A stretch of 64,000 nt of DNA from Archilochus colubris (Eukaryota > Chordata > Aves > Apodiformes > Trochilidae): assembly GCA_023079485.1 (NCBI GenBank), contig CM041083.1, positions 168,723,400 to 168,787,399 of the forward strand, given 5' to 3'. The position numbers and the translations under genes were made by a program. Below the pieces are notes generated by a model. That model did not search any database, was not told the origin of the DNA, and saw nothing but the letters and a program-made list of their open reading frames with translations. Positions 22,343 to 62,860 of the stretch are shown here, in pieces; the stretch's first letter is position 1; each line of letters starts with the position of its first letter.

Positions 22343-22458
22343 GGCGGCGGAGGGGGTGCGGAGACGTACTCGGGATACCGCGCATCACTACCCCTCGGTA
22401 GCGCACATAACCACCCCCACTACCCCCCTGGTGCCAGGTATCATCACCGCGGACCGCG

Positions 22459-22500
22459 CATCATCATCATCATCATCATCATTATCATCACCACCACCAC
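22459..22500 (+). repeat. (CAT)8 and (CAC)n trinucleotide repeat in PCDH8 5' UTR
   Basis: There are eight uninterrupted CAT units (22459-22482), then TAT, CAT and four CAC units. The repeat lies in the predicted 5' UTR, 40-80 nt upstream of the start codon, and contains no ATG on the + strand. Confidence 0.9.
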
Positions 22501-22539
22501 CCCGGACCGTCCCGTCGGGCTGAGCCCCGCGCAAGTGCC

Positions 22540-24951
22540 ATGAACCCCCTGCGGCTGCTGGCGGTCGCCTGCCTGCTGGCTCTGTCCCGCTGCAAGACGG
22601 TGAGGTACCGCACAGACGAGGAGGGAGCGCCGGGCACGGTGATTGGTACGCTGGCCGATGAGATGCCGGTGAAGGCGCCCGGGGAGATGAGCTTCCGCCT
22701 GATGAGGCAGTTCAGCAACAGCTCGCTGGTGAAGGTGCGGGAGGAGGACGGGCAGCTGAGCATCGGGGAAGCGGGGCTGGACCGGGAGCGGCTGTGCGGT
22801 CAGGCCCCCCAGTGTGTCCTGGCCTTCGACGTGGTGAGCTGCTGGCGGGAGCGGTACCGCCTGGTGCACGTGGAGCTGGAGGTGCGTGACATCAATGACA
22901 ACGCGCCACGCTTCCCCCGTGCCCAGATGGCACTGGAGGTGTCAGAGAGTGCTGCACCTGGCACCCGCCTCCCACTGGAGGTGGCCGTGGACGAGGATGT
23001 GGGCTCCAACTCCATCCAGAGCTTCCAAGTCTCCCTCAACAGCCACTTCGGCGTGGAGGCGCAGACACGAGCGGACGGGGCACGCTGCGCTGACCTGGTG
23101 CTGCTCCAGGAGCTGGACCGTGAGCGCCAGCCCTCCTACACGCTGGAGCTAGTGGCCAAGGATGGTGGTAGCCCAGCACGCTCGGGCACGGCCACCGTGC
23201 ACGTCCGCGTCCTCGATGCCAACGACAACAGCCCGGCCTTCGCCCAAGGCTCAGTCACAGTGGAGCTGCCTGAGGACGCACCACCCGGCTCCCTGCTGCT
23301 CGACCTGGACGCTGCCGACCCCGACGAGGGCCCCAATGGTGAGGTGGTCTACGCCTTTGGCAGCCAGGTTCCCACTGAGGCGCGGCGGCTCTTCCGCCTC
23401 GACCCCCGCTCAGGACGCCTCACACTGGAAGCTGCCGTGGACTACGAGCGCACCCGCACCTACGAGCTGGACGTGCGTGCCCAGGACCGCGGTGCCAGCC
23501 CCCGCACCGCCACCTGCACCGTCATTGTGCGCCTCACCGACGTCAACGACAACGCGCCACGCATCAGCATCAGCGCCCTCCGTGGTGCCGCCAGTGCTGC
23601 TGGCGTGGCCTATGTCAGCGAGGCGGCGGCCACCGAGAGCTTCGTGGCCCTCGTCAGTGCCACAGACCGTGACTCAGGAGCCAACGGGCAGGTGCGCTGC
23701 AGCCTCCGCGGCCACGACCACTTCACCCTACAGCGTGCCTATGAGGACAGCTACATGATCGTCACCACAGCGGCGCTGGACCGTGAGCGCATCCCTGAGT
23801 ATAACCTCACCGTGGTGGCTGAGGACCTGGGCTCACCGCCCTTCAAGACTGTCCGTCAGTACACAGTCCGAGTCAGCGATGAGAATGACAATGCACCGCT
23901 CTTCGCCAAGCCCCTCTATGAGGTGGCTGTGCCTGAGAACAATCCCCCAGGTGCCTACATCACCACCGTGGTGGCCCGCGACCCTGATCTTGGCCACAAC
24001 GGTAAGGTCACCTATCGTCTTCTGGAGACACAGGTCATGGGGGCTCCCATCTCCACCTACGTCTCAGTGGACCCCGCCACCGGGGCCATTTATGCCCTCA
24101 GGACGTTCAACTATGAAATTCTCAAGCAGCTGGACCTGAGGATCCAGGCTACTGATGGAGGTTCCCCACAGCTCTCCAGCAGCACCCTTGTCAAAGTGAG
24201 GATGGTGGACCAGAATGACAACCCTCCTGTCATAATCCACCCAGTGCTCACCAATGGGACAGTGGAAATCGGTGTGTCCAGCAAGACCTCTCGCGACTCC
24301 CTGGTGGCCCAGATCAAAGCCCGAGATGCAGACGATGGGGCCAATGCCGAGCTCACCTTTGCCTTCCTGGAAGAGCCTCAGCAAGATCTCTTCACCATCA
24401 ACCCAAGTACTGGGGACATTGTGCTGAGGGGTGACCTCTCTGAAGAGCTGGGTCAGCTGTTCAAGGTCATCCTCACTGTAACAGACAATGGCAGACCCCC
24501 CCTGGCCACAACTGCCACAGTCAACTTTCTGGTGACTGCCACTGCTCCATCCAGTATCCAGGAGATAGCCAAGCCCAGCTCCTGGGAAGGAAAAGCTTTG
24601 CAGTGGGACATCCCTTTGATCGTGATCATCGTCCTGGCAGGCAGCTGCACCCTTCTCCTGGTGGCTATCATCACCATCGCCACCACCTGCAACAGGCGCA
24701 AGAAGGGGAACGAGATGAAAAACAACGCTTCCCTGAAGGAGCAGATAGACATCTCCCACCTGGAGAAGGGCCGGCAGGAGGAGAGCAGCCAGAGGGGAAA
24801 TGTATTTGAGGTCCGAACCTTCCCCAGCAAAACCTCATTCACCACCCCTGACCCTTCTCCTGCTGCTGAAGAGATCTCCACCGCTGAGAGCGGCAGCGAC
24901 AGCACTTGCAACTATGAGGGTCAGAAGAAGCTCAGAGGACCAAGTGGGGAG
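22540..24951 (+). other. PCDH8: PCDH8 coding exon 1 (ectodomain, membrane segment, proximal tail)
   Basis: The exon holds 804 whole codons and ends in phase 0 at GAG followed by the donor GTAAGA. It covers the signal peptide, all six cadherin repeats, the transmembrane helix and the first part of the cytoplasmic tail. The reading frame stays open into the 131-nt intron and stops at 25066-25068. Confidence 0.95.
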
Positions 24952-26140
24952 GTAAGATCCTGGTGCAGGGAAGGGCGTGGGGGAATCGTCTCAGAGGATG
25001 CAAACTGCAGAGATGCAGTTCTGGTGTCAATTTACCCTTTGCTGCTTGCCCTCTCACCTCTCCTTTGATCCCTCCACCTCAGCAGGGTTTCGCCGCTGCG
25101 CCGAGCTACAGCAAGGAACCTGCTCCCCCCGTGGCCATTTGGAAGGGGCACTCATTCAACACCATCTCCGGCCGAGAAGCAGAGAAGTTCAGCGGCAAAG
25201 ACAGCGGCAAAGGCGACAGCGATTTTAATGACAGCGATTCAGATATCAGCGGGGATGCTTTGAAAAAAGATCTCATCACTCACATGCAGAATGGTAAGGA
25301 CTCAGCCCCGGCTCCTGGTTGGCACCTCCACACAGACAGATGGGTGGACGGGGAGGTGGGCAGAGGGACCCATCCCTAGGGCACAGTGATTAGGCAGGGC
25401 AGCTGGAGGGAGAAACCTGATGCTGTGTGACTCAAACTGCCCATCTCTTCACAGCAGGCTCTTAGATGCTGGTTCCTTTCCACACCGAGCACCCAGCACA
25501 AATTAGCAGATGCTGGAAGTACTGTAACAACGGGTTTTCCTTCCTCCTCAGAAAGCTTCCCATAAAGTTAGGATTGTGTGGAGTGTCCCTAGCAAAACAA
25601 CATAACCTTCCCTAGCATGGTTTTTTTTGCTGTGCTGTAGAACATCACCCCCCGACTCCCACTGTCAGTGCATTGAATCATCCCATGGCCGGTGACTGAG
25701 GATTACAAATGATGTGGATTTATTCCTGCAGTAATGACAGGTTTTTCCTTCTCTCCTTCCCTTCAGGTCTGTGGGCATGTACAGCTGAGTGCAAGATCCT
25801 GGGCCACTCTGACCGCTGCTGGAGCCCCTCCTGCGGCCGAGCCAACCCTCACCCCTCTCCCCATCCTTCTGCACCCCTCTCCACCTTCTGCAAGAGCACG
25901 TCCTTGCCCAGGGACCCCCTCCGCAGGGACAACTTTTACCAAGCCCAGCTGCCCAAAACAGTGGGGCTTCAGAGTGTCTACGAGAAAGTGCTGCACAGGG
26001 ACTTTGACCGGACGATCACTCTCCTCTCCCCACCACGCCCCGCACGGCTCCCTGACCTTCAAGAGATTGGGGTGCCCCTCTACCCAGCCCCCTCGACTAG
26101 ATATCTGGGTCCCCAGACTGACACGGCTGAGAAGGTGTAG
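22540..26140 (+). CDS. PCDH8: Protocadherin-8 (paraxial protocadherin), complete, 3 coding exons
   Basis: Coding sequence is join(22540..24951, 25083..25293, 25767..26140), 2,997 nt, 998 aa. It encodes a single-pass, calcium-dependent adhesion protein of the delta2-protocadherin group. Seen: a hydrophobic signal peptide (about 1-18); six cadherin repeats whose linkers carry DINDNAP (117), DANDNSP (226), DVNDNAP (334), DENDNAP (447) and DQNDNPP (557); repeated LDRE motifs; a membrane segment at about 693-716 followed by NRRKK; and a 280-residue tail. The tail has the acidic [13 protein letters not shown] motif (850-862) and LWACTAEC (876-883), typical of PCDH8 and its delta2 relatives. One large exon for ectodomain plus membrane segment is a family hallmark. 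Human PCDH8 is about 1,070 aa; part of the difference is a shorter Ala-rich stretch near 340-365. The start has G at -3 and no upstream ATG after the predicted cap site. Family knowledge: roles in paraxial mesoderm morphogenesis, somite boundaries and synapse remodelling. The orthology is strong. Confidence 0.97.
25083..25293 (+). other. PCDH8: PCDH8 coding exon 2 (tandem-acceptor exon)
   Basis: The exon has 211 nt (phase 0 in, phase 1 out) and encodes residues 805-874 plus one base of codon 875, including [20 protein letters not shown] and the acidic [13 protein letters not shown] motif. The acceptor is a tandem CAGCAG at 25080-25085, so the exon may start at 25083 (extra Gln) or 25086. The donor is GTAAGG at 25294. 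Confidence 0.93.
25767..26140 (+). other. PCDH8: PCDH8 coding exon 3 (C-terminal tail)
   Basis: The acceptor is a pyrimidine-rich tract ending TTCAG at 25766. The exon completes the split Gly codon 875, continues [20 protein letters not shown], and ends at TAG 26138-26140. The segments [15 protein letters not shown] and [18 protein letters not shown] match the very conserved PCDH8 C-terminus. Confidence 0.95.
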
Positions 26141-33689: not shown

Positions 33690-34360
33690 TTTTCTTAGGA
33701 GTTATTTATTTTTATTTATTTAACTGCGTAAACTGATTATCCATGTAACAACTTTAATCAATTATCTGTGGCGAAGAACTTCTCTGCAACTTAATTAGCA
33801 AAGTTCTTCCCTGACCTAGCAGTATCTGATTGCATCATGTAAGAGCTTAACTTTGAAATGGCAACACAGTTCATTAAAAATAACTAATAGCTGCAGGGTT
33901 TAAAGATGTAAATGTTCATTTTCTTAATGAGAAAAAAAAGGGCATGCAGACTCTACCTGTCTATATTCATTATACTGTGTCCACATGGGATGACTCACAT
34001 TTGCAAAACTCAAGTTTAATTAACATGCTTATTTTTACAATGATATTTCTCATTATAATAAATTAAATGTTTAAACAGCCAGCGCAAACATTTTGATCCA
34101 AGACAAAAATGCTTGCACAGTGCTAGTTTAAGCATTTAATTTATTATAATCCTTTCCATAACAAATGCCTCAGAAGTTGGTTGGGGTTTTTTGTGTTTTT
34201 TTTTTTTCCTCTGTGAAAGGCTATTAGTATTATTTCCTCTGGTAATGTTTAATCCAAGACAATCAAAAAATTGAAGGCGTGAACAGAATTGGACTGGAAG
34301 CAATGATGATAAATGAGATAGTGAAGGAATCTGCCTGCTCTGGTAGCGGTGCAGCTGGTG
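33690..34360. promoter_or_regulatory. Possible conserved non-coding element around the hairpin
   Basis: This AT-rich, repeat-free block is dense in homeodomain cores (TTAATTAGC, TTTAATTAACATG, TAACTAATAG, AATCAATTATC) and flanked by GC-richer DNA. It contains the 34052-34150 hairpin. The look is typical of deeply conserved vertebrate enhancers, but conservation was not tested. Confidence 0.4.
34052..34150 (-). ncRNA. MIR759: Hairpin resembling the mir-759 precursor, between PCDH8 and CNMD
   Basis: Arms 34052-34076 and 34126-34150 are reverse complements over 25 nt with one G-U-type mismatch (34070 with 34132). The stem continues inward with small bulges and a few mismatches to an 11-nt loop at 34095-34105, giving about 40 base pairs. 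Read on the - strand, the stem base, 5p arm and 3p arm align with human mir-759 as I recall it, with scattered substitutions. The human gene lies between CNMD and PCDH8 on the strand opposite both, as here. The 22-nt segment matching human miR-759 is the complement of 34102-34123 and agrees at 17 of 22 positions. The alternative is an old palindromic transposon copy with no small-RNA product. Because the stem is nearly symmetrical, strand depends on the homology. Confidence 0.7.
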
Positions 34361-41807: not shown

Positions 41808-42262
41808 AATCATAGAATCATAGAATTGGCTGGGTTGGAAGGGACCTCAGAGATCATCAAGTCCAACCCTTGATCCACTACCGCTGCAGTTACCAGACCA
41901 TGGCACTGAGTGCCACATCCAGTCTCTTTTTAAATATCTCCAGACACAGAGAATCCACTACTTCCCTGGGCAGCCCATTCCAATGCTTGATCACTCTCTC
42001 CATAAAGAAATTCTTTCTAATATCCAACCTAAACCTCCCCCGGCACAACTTGAGACCGTGCCCTCTTGTCTTGCTGAGAGTTACCTGGGAAAAGAGACCA
42101 ACCCCCCCCCTGGCTACCCCCTCCTTTCAGGGAGTTGTAGAGAGTGATGAGGTCTCCCCTGAGCCTCCTCTTCTCCAGGCTGAACACCCCCAGCTCCCTC
42201 AGCCTCTCTTCATAGGATCTGAGCTCGAGTCCCTTCACCAGCCTGGTTGCCCTGCATGGCCC
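41808..42262 (-). mobile_element. CR1 3' fragment, antisense
   Basis: It starts AATCATAGAATCATAGAATT and is very similar to the first 430 nt of the copy at 51293. It ends abruptly within the coding part near GTTGCCCTGCATGG. Confidence 0.93.
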
Positions 42263-45200
42263 CAGAGCAGATGGGCTATAACATGTGGAACTTAAATTAT
42301 TTGACAGTTCTCCCTTTTCAGGATCAGAGAACACCATGGAAGTGGCTGCTCATTGTGGTGTGGTGAAAGCCCTGGGAAACAGGACTCTGCTGCAGGTCCC
42401 AAAGGCAGCCACAGCTGTGAGCCCCATGGCAGCCAAGTCTTCCTGGGAGCTCACCATCCTTTCTCCCACCTCACCTGGCCTCCAGGTTCAGGGGCTGCCA
42501 TTCCTCCTTTCCTCCCTTGCTCTTCTAGGCTGTCCAAGATGAAAGGTCCCCATTCTTTCTCATGCTATTTTTCAGGCATCTTCTCCCCTAAGCAGCCCAC
42601 ACCAGGTCTGCATGGGGACCCTGTTGCTTCAGGCTCATCAAATCACATCTTTGGGAAAGGAGATTTGAACGTAGCCAGGCCAAAATTGTTATCACTGTTG
42701 TTGCTAGAGCCTGATTTCATAAGGAAAGACATGGAGGGAAGACAGGTGGTTCCCATAAATGATGCCTGGTTTTGGCCTCTCTCTACCCTATCTCTCAGGA
42801 AAATAGTTATCCAAGCAGTCCATTGCTCACACCTCCAGTTGAGCTGCCTGGCAAATGTCTCCAGTTCAGGCACTCTGAATTTTCCAGAGAGACCTTACCC
42901 ATTTTGTCCACCATATCCTACCCTAAGCACAGAGGTCCTCAGAAGGAATAGACCTCTCACAGCCGTCAGTAGGGAAGGGAGAACGGGCATGTGGTGTTCT
43001 CCATGGTCATTTCTGAGGACTAGAAATGTCAAGAGAAGGGATGTAAACAGATTAAAGTCAACAGGCAGAGCACTAACATTTAGCAGAAGACATGGCTGCA
43101 CGAGGTGGTTTATTGGTTCTTTCATCCTCCCCGATTTAGTTTCTTAACTCTGATGCTATGGAGGGGTTTTGGAACAAACTTTTGTTTTGGGGTTTTGGTT
43201 TTTTTTTTGAGTAGAGATTTGTTTTAAAAAAAAGAAAAAAAAGCCATGTAGGAGGCCAAATGAGAGAATAGAGTATAGGTAAATAAAGATAAAACTTGCT
43301 GAAATCAACCCTCACAAAATTCTCACAAAGGGAATGAAAAAAAAAAATTAAAAGAAAATAGTTTAACGAGTTATGAGAAAGGTGGTAAAATAGATGTTTC
43401 AAGAGACTGTATTTGTGAAAAAAATTCTGGTGCCACAGGCACTTCCAGGACAATCTCATTGGAAATTATTCTCTAAAGTCAGGTCGTGAAATTATTAGAA
43501 GAACAGTGTGTAGACTGAAAAAGAAAAATAGTTAATTCGTGGGTGCTCTTGGCTAAGGAAAAAAAAACCAAAAAACCCAAAAAACCCTCCAAGCTCGGCC
43601 TTTGCTACAAAGGAAAAAGAAACTTAGCAGATTTCTCATCAAAGTGTAAAAAAGCCTCTAGGAAATAAGCAGATTGATGCTACTAAGCTGTTTAAGATAA
43701 TAACTACCTCGAAAGCACAAAGCTGTGGTTGGAGGTCAAAAAAGTAGCCTATGAGCAATTTACACAGAAGAGCTACAAAAAAAGACCACATTGTTAAAGG
43801 TAGAAATGAAAACATGTAATGACAGCTAGTTATTTTATTTCTTTAATTCAAGGCAAACAGAAGGCACAGCCGCTGGCTAAATTAAGAAGAATAAGATGAA
43901 GACATATGGACAAATGGGATTCAGCTCTCGGGAAAAACAAATCAGCCTGTAGTGTCCTGGGGTGAGGAAGAGCAGCCCAAGATGGGCTCTATGTCCTCAC
44001 CCGACCACTGGAGAAAAAGAGGAAGAATTTGGGCTGAGTGAGGCCCTGTACCAAGTGTGTTTCAGGCCATCCTTTCAAGCAGGACCAGCCCAGCTGTGAG
44101 GTGCATCCCAAACTGAGGAAACAGGGATGCCCATCTTCTCCATAGAGTAGAATCAAATCAAAGGGACTGGACTTCTCAGGGAGAATTTCACAGCCTAACA
44201 GGGGAAAAAGGTGATTTAAGTGTTTGAAAATTCACATGTTGCTGGGCAAAGAAGGCAGAACGTGTCTGGACACCCTGAGCATGGGGCATGGAGGGAGAGG
44301 AGGAAAAGCAGGCATCCCAGGGACACCACAACATCCAGAGGCAAGAGACACGGTGACAACATGAACGTGCGGTTTACATCTTTCAAGTCTCACTGCCAGC
44401 AAGAATGTCTAGAGTTTCTCAAAATCTTCAGGCTATCACTGGTTAAATACCAAAGCCAAGGTTTTCTTTTTCTATGGGACTTTCTTCCCTAGAAGACCTT
44501 GGGTTATTTTTTGCAGAGACATCAAGTAAGTAGGGCCTGAATCAACACCAAGTTATGGTGGTGCAAAACTGTGAAAAAACAGAGCAGCGAACCAGGCTCT
44601 CACATATTTCTGTTCAAGTAACTATTTGGGACACTAAGAAAATGAAGATAAAATGCAAAAATCACCACAAGAGACTTATGGAAAGGCACACAGCATCACC
44701 AAATCCTTCTCATTTTTAATATTTCCACTTCTCCTGCTAAACTTTTTCTTTAAACCGAAAAATAATGAGAAAATGTGCTGCTTTGAGACAAGCCGGTACT
44801 ATCAGCTAAGCAACCCCACATTCATCGTGGCACTCCAAGTACTCTGGAATGCTTTTCAGCCTGGAGGATAATAGTATTAGACGACCAGAAAGGCTGTCCT
44901 CTAAAAGACTGTTATTATGATTTCCAGTCTCAGAAGTTGGCTTAATCCAGCTGAGCACACACATGTTATTTAGAGAGGAGCCTCAGCTCAGACACTGGTA
45001 TCATCGTCATCTTTATTGCAAATGAAGAATTCAGCCAGTGAAAGGCAAGTCACGTTTTTTTGTGGGTTTTTTTTTGTCCTAAGCCCCTGCAAACAGTGGC
45101 TGTTGCACTTGTCTTTGCACTCTGCAGCCAGCGTCTGGAGCTGCTGAATGCTGGGCTGTTTGTATGGATTTGCATCTGTCTAAAAAATCCCGTTTTCTTC

Positions 45201-47919
45201 TCTTGTCACCTAATCAATCAAACAGCAAAAGATGCACTCCCCTCACCCTCCAAGGAAAACAGGTCCGTGCCCACACAAAAGGCAAAGCATGAACATAGGG
45301 GTTGACTTGAAGGGGGAAGCTGCAAACAGTGTAAGAGGAAGGGTTTTTTTTCTTTCTGTTTCCTTGAAATTTCATGCTGCTCTTCCTCTGCCTGTGGAAC
45401 AAAAGAAGAAAATGCAGCGATGCTCTAAGTTGGGGAAAAAATACATAATCTGGAATTGTTCCCTTCACGAGAAAAACACATTTGGAGGATTACTTGGGTG
45501 ATTTGCACCTTGAATTGAGGAGGAAATGCTGCACACAGTTTCCTTTCCAGGGTTTGGGCAAAGCAGCTCCCTCCCAAAGGACCAGTTCCCTCACACACAC
45601 CTCCCCACACCAGCAGAACCCACAAAGGATGGGCAGTGGGGTGCCCATCCCTGCTGATAAACTTGTGGCTGGAATTGTGAGTGGCTGCCCAATCCCAGTC
45701 CTGCCAGGACCACCACTGCCCCATCAATAGGGTGGGGGACAAGCCCTCAACTCCATCCTTCACCTACCAAGGGGTGATGCTGCACTTCACCCCATACTGC
45801 TCTTACAGCACCTGGAGTGAAGATGCCTCCATGAGCACCCAACAAATTACACACATTTGTCCTTGCACCCAGCAAATGTATTAATTACACACATTTGTTC
45901 TTGCACCAGCAGCCTCTTTCTAACACTCCCTGGCTGCCCATTTGCTGGCCAGCATGGTACAGCCTCCCTCTGTCCCTGCACTCACATCCCAGGGAAGGAG
46001 CTGTGGGGCACTCAGTTGGGTACCAGGATGAGGGGACAGCTGGTCCCCCACCTCAGTCACAGGGAAGCAGCTGAAACAAGCCAAACCCCAGTGAGCAGCA
46101 CCTCTTCCCAGGCAAGCACTCCCTCCCTGGAATGGTTTCCCATGGGAGACAAGCACAGGGGCCTTAAAATAAATCTGTCTTTTTAAAGCAGTGATGCTAA
46201 ATGGAGGTTTGAGATCAAAGGCTGGGATTCTCACATTTTGCCAAGACAGACATATCCATTCACGAGATTTTTGGTGTTACAAAATACTTGCTAATGAAGA
46301 GGATCATAATCTTATTATTAGCCCCAACCTACAACAGTATGTCAGTCGAGAGTGGGCTAGAGTATGCCCTAGTTTAGGAAGTTGCACAGTAGGCTTCATT
46401 TTTTATTTAATGAGCTGTGATTGCTTTTATTTTTGGTGGCAACTGTGCCCGTTAAATTTTTGGTTAAGGTCTGATTATTGACGACAGGAATCGATGGGAA
46501 GGATTAGTTTGGGCTGAAGGGAGGCAAAATAGGGATCATGTCTCTGGGATTTGGTCCTCAAGCACACAGAGGGGTGAGGGCCATCAGCAGGGTCTGTGTT
46601 TGCTCCACTTTTGCATTACTTGATGATGGTTTTCAAGCTACTGGTCACATCACTGAGGGGATTTAGAAGTGTGAGAAGCAGCAAAGATTTTTTTCAGCTA
46701 TGGAGTGGGTTGCAGAGGAGAGGCACATGTAGGAAAACAGCTGCAGCAGCCAAACCTGCCTTTCTGGGACACACAGGGCTGTGATGAGCCAGGGTGGGAC
46801 AGGATCCCAGAAGGTTTAAGAGAGGGGGGCATGTCAGTAGTAACAACTCAGTGTAACAACTGAGCAAAGAGGCATAAACCTGATGCTGGGTAAGCAGGAG
46901 GAAAGAGAAATGTAAATGGAGATGCACGCTCTGAAAAAAAAATTATTTGCTGTTTCAGAGCTAATGAGCACAGTGAATGCTCCAGAGTGAGATGGGCCCC
47001 CACATGCCAGGGTCTCCCCAATTTAACAGGCTCTCCTCCAGGGTTGTTTCTAGGCTGAGAAACTGGAGCTGGGCCACTGGGCAAGCAAAGCAGGGCAAAG
47101 CTTTGCCAGATTTCCCTTTCATATGCTGTTTGCTCCAAAGGGGCCCAGCATGATTTATTTTCCAGCAGCAAGGAGTGCACACTTGGACACACGTGGGTAC
47201 AGGCAGGAGGACACACAGACAGAGACAGACACACGTAGCCCTGAGTTTAAGTTTCCCATGTGCTGTATCAGAAAAAGCAAAGAAGATCCCTTCCAACCCA
47301 GATTCCCCTGTGATTCTGCTGTGCTTCTGGTGCTCAAAAGAACACACGGAGCAGCATGAGTGACAAGGAAATGGAAGAAATTCCAGAGATGTGTTTACTT
47401 TGGAGGTCAAGTCACAAGTTACTTCCAGCATTTTAAAATGAAAATATGAAAGTACCCCCCACACACCCTTTAGGGGGTGCACCAAGCCTGGGTTTGGGGG
47501 TTGGTTCCCCAGGCTGTGCCCAGCTTGATGCCAGGGGTCGTGCTGGTGGCTGGGCTGGTGGCTTGTGCCATCAACATCGAGGTGTTTCACAGAGCAGGCA
47601 CCCAGTAGCAGCTCGTCAGCTCCAGCGCCTGTGAATTCCTGTGGCGAGTGTCAAATTAAAAAAAAATTAAAAAAGAAAAAGAAAAATCTGTTAAAATGCG
47701 GTTCTACTTTTAAAAGCTGATTTTCACCACGTCTGCCTGCCTGCTGGGGCACCTCTCCTCTCAGCAATGCCATGAGGGGTCGGGGGAGGGGACTTTATCC
47801 CCTGTGCCCTCCTGACTGACTCCTCATGTCCAAAGCTGGAGACAAGACCCAGGGAGAGGGGGAGGGAGGACAGAGCTGGAGGGGGTGTGAGGGACCCGGT
47901 ACCGGGCAGCTCAAGGGGC
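42263..47919. other. Intergenic DNA 5' of CNMD, no gene recognised
   Basis: Contains a 264-codon open frame at 42353-43147 without known motifs, A/T-rich runs at 43.2-43.6 kb, and an AT-rich unique block at 46190-46500 that could be a CNMD enhancer. Nothing was recognised as a gene. Confidence 0.55.

Positions 47920-48080: not shown

Positions 48081-62860
<14,780 letters not shown>

Follow-up and report, generated by a model that had tools for sequence, protein, structure and literature searches.

A hairpin homologous to the mir-759 family in the PCDH8–CNMD interval of the hummingbird Archilochus colubris

A long near-palindrome is found between the genes PCDH8 and CNMD in Archilochus colubris, and its similarity to the mammalian microRNA precursor mir-759 raises the question of whether mir-759 is a genuine microRNA whose product has been assigned wrongly or instead a conserved palindrome that has been mistaken for a microRNA. 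The palindrome was analyzed in a stretch of 64,000 nucleotides (contig CM041083.1, positions 168,723,400–168,787,399 of the forward strand, assembly GCA_023079485.1), here termed the window. Positions of the features within the window are in Table 1.

Table 1. Positions of the hairpin, its parts and the flanking coding exons in the window. Columns are those of the Rfam model RF03436.
Feature	Position	Strand	Basis
Complete hairpin of 99 nt with 44 predicted base pairs	34052..34150	-	Fold prediction, pairs counted from dot-bracket
Lower stem, 5′ arm of - strand RNA	34126..34150	-	Inverted-repeat search
Lower stem, 3′ arm of - strand RNA	34052..34076	-	Inverted-repeat search
RF03436 mir-759 match, model positions 1–89 of 89, 86.1 bits	34057..34145	-	Covariance model
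Equivalent of annotated mammalian mature miR-759, columns 23–44	34102..34123	-	5/22 differ from consensus
Longest run identical to consensus, columns 70–86, 17 nt, 3′ arm	34060..34076	-	
Second longest identical run, columns 4–14, 11 nt, 5′ arm facing columns 70–86	34132..34142	-	
Identical run, columns 53–62, 10 nt, upper 3′ arm	34084..34093	-	
PCDH8 main coding exon	22540..25068	+	Open frame 22411–25068, protein relatives
First coding exon of CNMD, start codon ATG at 48081, splice donor GTGAGT following 48152	48081..48152	+	Protein matches
Open frame with CNMD exon carrying part of BRICHOS domain	56179..56394	+	Domain and protein matches
Open frame with CNMD last coding exon	62630..62857	+	Protein matches

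The two 25-nt arms of the palindrome are 96% complementary and are separated by 49 nt. The window has 24 inverted-repeat pairs with arms of at least 18 nt that are no more than 400 nt apart, and the hairpin arms are the longest among these with the exception of low-complexity pairs and a CR1-like pair at 61.4 kb. The latter is a 43-nt inverted repeat (positions 61418–61460 and 61559–61601, 84%), which we take to resemble two facing CR1-type ends. The single mismatch in the hairpin arms is C.A on the - strand, which corresponds to G.U on the + strand. When 120-nt stretches at 2130 positions were folded on both strands (4260 in all) and the folding energy was fitted to GC content, the - strand stretch at position 34051 ranked first, and ranks 2 and 3 overlap the same mir-759-like hairpin. 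The original prediction described a near-palindromic 99-nt hairpin with 25-nt arms and one wobble-type mismatch, and this description holds. It also specified an open 11-nt loop, which is not what the fold displays: on the - strand the predicted loop is 3 nt and is closed by a few pairs. The best GC-corrected fold after the mir-759 hairpin is at positions 45781–45900 (- strand, -46.2 kcal/mol, residual z -3.03); the whole-window search showed no Rfam match there at E ≤ 0.1.

The MFE of the hairpin is -43.5 kcal/mol (z -8.42) for the - strand and -37.9 kcal/mol (z -8.86) for the + strand, and on neither strand was this value equalled by any of 200 dinucleotide shuffles; measured against its own shuffles, the + strand is as extreme as the - strand. 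An identical hairpin is predicted with 0, 50, 100 and 150 nt of flanking sequence, and a pair near the hairpin base has a probability of at least 0.96 when flanks of up to 150 nt are included. The hairpin is thus stable and of a size suitable for a microRNA gene, with a stem (about 44 bp) that is longer than usual. The stem of a microRNA hairpin is usually about 35 bp.

A search of the window with 4227 Rfam families gave a match at E ≤ 0.1 to one family only, RF03436 (mir-759). The match is on the - strand, with E-values of 2.1e-18 (301 bases), 4.4e-16 (window) and 1.8e-15 (whole genome), and it spans the complete model, in agreement with the earlier claim of homology to mir-759 along the whole length. 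Seventy-five of the 89 positions are identical to the RF03436 consensus, 14 differ and there are no insertions or deletions. The + strand of the hairpin scores 45 bits against the same model, as expected of a palindrome. The absence of an alignable hairpin at the human locus had been named as a finding that would count against homology; compared with the Rfam model only, RF03436 aligns throughout. However the score of 86.1 bits is under the RF03436 gathering score of 100, and no match was found in the window at the Rfam gathering thresholds. The bird hairpin is therefore not a formal Rfam member, solely an ortholog of the mir-759 locus.

Weak matches at E ≤ 10 are found to four other microRNA families: MIR7504 (RF04134), MIR4208 (RF04174), MIR2606 (RF04205) and MIR6140 (RF04228). 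These have E-values of 0.015 to 8.7 and scores of 13.5–25.8 bits, far under the gathering scores of 83–140, and three of the four are on the + strand. They are probably composition-driven alignments of AT-rich stems. When RF03436 was searched over 14 well-known genomes, matches were seen in Escherichia coli and Lactococcus lactis, none over the cut-off, and these are at chance level at E ≤ 10. An exact scan with a conserved 3′-arm pattern found no occurrence in viral contigs and none in prokaryote contigs, as expected.

The main PCDH8 exon ends about 9 kb before the hairpin, and the CNMD start codon follows 13.9 kb after it; the hairpin, on the - strand, is antisense to PCDH8 and CNMD alike. 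The identity of the flanking genes is based on protein relatives. A search with the PCDH8 exon gave 7330 relatives at E ≤ 0.001 among 8000 scored. Among the best 120 of these 7330 most are named protocadherin-8, PCDH8 or PCDH8-like, eight are nameless and a few have general or other names (e.g. P0045, P0075, P0089, P0108). The Anna's hummingbird (Calypte anna) PCDH8 protein, P0038, is 100% identical to the exon, with 86% of the query covered. The joined CNMD pieces matched 319 proteins at E ≤ 0.001, of which the best 120 were compared, and the top matches are bird leukocyte cell-derived chemotaxin 1, or CNMD. The separate pieces match 104, 118 and 120 of the best 120 of 319 proteins and align, e.g., to residues 1–24, 115–155 and 283–353 of P0121. 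The BRICHOS domain in one CNMD exon scores 27.6 bits, where the cut-off is 25.

Other elements are present in this region. Two overlapping open frames of 311–313 aa are found inside the CNMD gene at positions 51536–53372 (- strand). The frame tested, 51536–52474 (- strand), encodes a PF00078 (reverse transcriptase) domain with a score of 63.8 bits, and the element is a LINE of the CR1 type found in birds. Open frames 41816–42295 and 54803–55276 (both + strand) have one 34-residue peptide stretch in common; they are two copies of a dispersed repeat and flank the CNMD start.

LECT1 is taken here as a synonym of CNMD. With the listed order taken as genomic order, the human gene list in one paper reads LECT1, MIR759, PCDH8 (PMC3964219), and the cattle list in another reads PCDH8, MIR759, CNMD (PMC11927911). 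The bird hairpin thus occupies the place of the mir-759 locus, and the syntenic position between PCDH8 and CNMD that had been proposed for it agrees with the bird window and with both lists. The proposal also had mir-759 as best known from primates, which is too narrow, as the cattle list names MIR759 (PMC11927911). The bird hairpin is homologous to RF03436 (hsa-mir-759, 13q14.3; cattle MIR759) over the full length and agrees with it in stem layout and in its location in the PCDH8–CNMD interval. It differs by one extra pair in the lower stem (columns 15/75). The bird stem also runs five pairs past the ends of the model, but these are not covered by the model and so may be no difference.

Homology to RF03436 together with the shared interval makes it nearly certain that the bird hairpin is the ortholog of the mir-759 locus, as judged from sequence and gene order. 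This homology, with the location shared by bird, human and cattle, suggests that a mir-759-related hairpin dates back at least to the common ancestor of birds and mammals, and this supports the early-amniote date that had been put forward. The divergence of amniotes dates to about 320 million years ago. What had been termed an avian mir-759 is thus upheld as an ortholog of the locus. It is not upheld as a microRNA in birds, given the score under 100 and an annotated seed that differs at two of seven positions.

Open-licence papers were searched for a published mir-759 from birds, and none was found. Two published entries were set aside. A zebrafish "miR-759" on chromosome 8 is based on BLAST of mouse sequences at more than 80% identity, and synteny is not given in the passage that lists it (PMC2427041). 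An entry "mmu-mir-759" has 100% precursor identity to human (PMC2258288), which looks too good for mouse versus human, and the entry may be mislabelled.

The changes in the bird hairpin were analyzed with the Rfam RF03436 consensus as reference, i.e. as a comparison of two sequences. Twenty-nine of the 36 model pairs are unchanged in letters. In two others both partners have changed and pairing is retained (3/87 from CG to UA and 22/69 from GC to AU); at both positions the human mir-759 precursor would carry G.U, which would make a neat intermediate, and no weight is given to this here. Two further pairs, 29/63 and 34/58, became G.U by a one-sided change and hold on the - strand only. Three pairs are broken (27/65, 37/56 and 43/50), all in the upper stem. 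The column pair 15/75, which is outside of the model structure, is paired in the bird and unpaired in the consensus. The lower stem (columns 1–22 and 68–89) has five changes in 44 positions, all of which keep or add pairing, and the upper part (columns 23–67) has nine changes in 45 positions, including all three broken pairs, although the difference between these rates is small.

Neutral sequence is saturated between birds and mammals, and the identity of 75/89 therefore points to constraint. The evidence for selection on pairing as such is modest. When the same 14 changes were randomly placed in 200,000 trials, at least two double-compensated pairs together with no more than three broken pairs occurred in 3.0% of trials; taken singly, the fraction was 0.064 for at least two double-compensated pairs and 0.096 for no more than three broken pairs, and the test is a weak one. 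Selection acting on the RNA fold is nonetheless considered probable, with some reserve.

The strand of a putative RNA was assessed over 38 column pairs, i.e. the 36 of the model with 14/76 and 15/75 added by hand. The consensus forms 38 of these pairs on the + strand versus 36 on the - strand, and the bird sequence forms 33 versus 34. The G.U changes at 29/63 and 34/58 would favor the - strand. The C.A in the lower stem at 14/76, and that at 15/75 in the consensus, would favor the + strand.

The annotated mature miR-759 (5p) is taken to be at model columns 23–44. The annotated seed (nt 2–8) is CAGAGUG in the consensus and CACUGUG in the bird, i.e. two of the seven nucleotides differ, and the annotated stretch has no unchanged 7-mer. 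In addition, the equivalent of the annotated 5p starts at nt 28 of the bird hairpin, which is 27 nt above the base. Drosha usually cuts about 11–13 nt from the hairpin base, and the annotated 5p is therefore a poor fit in the bird. One paper gives a variant in the hsa-miR-759 seed at 13:53384209 with a count of 4 (PMC4064319), thus the seed is not strictly fixed in humans either; this entry also agrees with the start of the mature product taken here. That the bird hairpin would yield the same microRNA as annotated miR-759 is not supported, and for the annotated seed the nucleotides compared contradict it.

A conserved product, if there is any, would be one other than the annotated 5p, because of the lack of an unchanged 7-mer in the annotated stretch. 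Identical runs of at least seven letters are confined to columns 4–14, 53–62 and 70–86. The only such run in the 5′ arm (11 nt) is below the annotated stretch. The unchanged 10- and 17-nt runs are in the 3′ arm, and a conserved product would most likely come from that arm.

The following process can be proposed. The locus would be transcribed from the - strand, antisense to PCDH8 and CNMD, and the transcript would fold into a hairpin of roughly 44 bp. Drosha and Dicer, or Dicer alone, would cut this hairpin into small RNAs. The stem would have been kept by selection since the amniote ancestor, and the small RNA that is conserved would not be the annotated miR-759 5p of the upper stem but another, with the 3′ arm as its most likely source. 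A processed small RNA from this hairpin in birds falls a little short of an even prospect, and the sequence of - strand transcription, trimming of the hairpin to small RNAs and a conserved output different from the annotated 5p is likewise held tentatively, with the balance leaning slightly against it. The reading as a whole, that an ortholog hairpin is transcribed from the - strand and cut to small RNAs with its stem under selection, is favored by a narrow preference. Counted against a microRNA are the score of 86.1 bits, which is less than 100, the change of two of seven seed positions, a 5p that is too high on the stem and the 44-bp stem length. It is possible, if somewhat doubtful, that what has been kept is the long lower stem, that annotated human miR-759 is lineage-specific or minor, and that the real output is another small RNA, from the lower stem or the 3′ arm, or else the function is that of a palindromic DNA or a structural RNA in the PCDH8–CNMD interval.

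The chief rival of the microRNA reading is a deeply conserved palindromic DNA element, e.g. an enhancer of PCDH8/CNMD or a chromatin site for dimeric factors, with the hairpin and the microRNA annotation as by-products. The site lies in non-coding DNA next to a developmental gene, in keeping with such an element, and the two strands are about equally far outside their shuffles. The AT-rich lower palindrome is less changed (5/44) than is the upper portion, where the annotated microRNA lies (9/45), and the 29/36 pairs that are unchanged in letters exceed what pairing alone asks for. However the two G.U changes are good only as - strand RNA, and the mir-759 name presumably rests on a cloned small RNA. 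The DNA element is regarded as a real contender but rather unlikely. Chance formation of a palindrome with a chance likeness to mir-759 might be considered, as AT-rich sequences fold and align easily and weak matches to the four other microRNA families appear at E ≤ 10. This is refuted in practice by the full-model match free of insertions and deletions with E-values of 4.4e-16 (window) and 1.8e-15 (genome), by the 0/200 shuffles that fold as well and by the identical gene interval.

The palindrome could also have been kept by template-switch mutation, i.e. by copying from arm to arm, with no selection on an RNA. One paper reports template switching in RNA hairpins, some of them at human microRNA loci (PMC8794818), and at columns 15/75 the two arms agree better in the bird than in the consensus. 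This process explains the likeness of one arm to the other but not the 75/89 letters that are common to the bird and the mammalian family, and the two double-changed pairs stand singly and far apart and form no run. Furthermore mir-759 is absent from the main text of that paper (PMC8794818). Template switching is thus an improbable account. The near-palindromic shape and the size would also fit an old MITE-type transposon insertion that predates the amniote radiation and may or may not have acquired a function later. The ends, ATTATAAT, also form a direct repeat, but only since the 8-mer is its own reverse complement. The genome (the window's own assembly, 1,099,824,533 bases in 182 contigs) was searched for further copies, with only the best candidates scored and very common words skipped. 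A DNA search with the hairpin at E ≤ 0.001 found only its own locus and own reverse complement, and an RF03436 search at E ≤ 10 found only its own locus, with 57 of 290151 candidates scored, so that a weak copy could be missed. There is no second copy in the window either, where the next best match by score is 15 nt, self-matches on both strands aside. Many copies in the genome had been named as the sign of a transposon family, and none beyond this locus was found in the 1.1-Gb genome. This lowers the transposon alternative and raises the reading of a transcribed and processed ortholog hairpin. A transposon may have brought in the hairpin at first, and the locus could be the lone relic of an old family, but the flanking genes are common to bird, human and cattle, and an origin from a MITE is considered very improbable.

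If the reading of a transcribed and processed ortholog hairpin is true, a microRNA locus known from mammals moves back to the amniote ancestor, with the hairpin retained while the annotated seed has changed. The RF03436 cut-off of 100 bits leaves out a clearly related bird hairpin, which suggests that there are hidden bird orthologs, and other non-mammalian orthologs of mir-759 may likewise escape the gathering score of this family.
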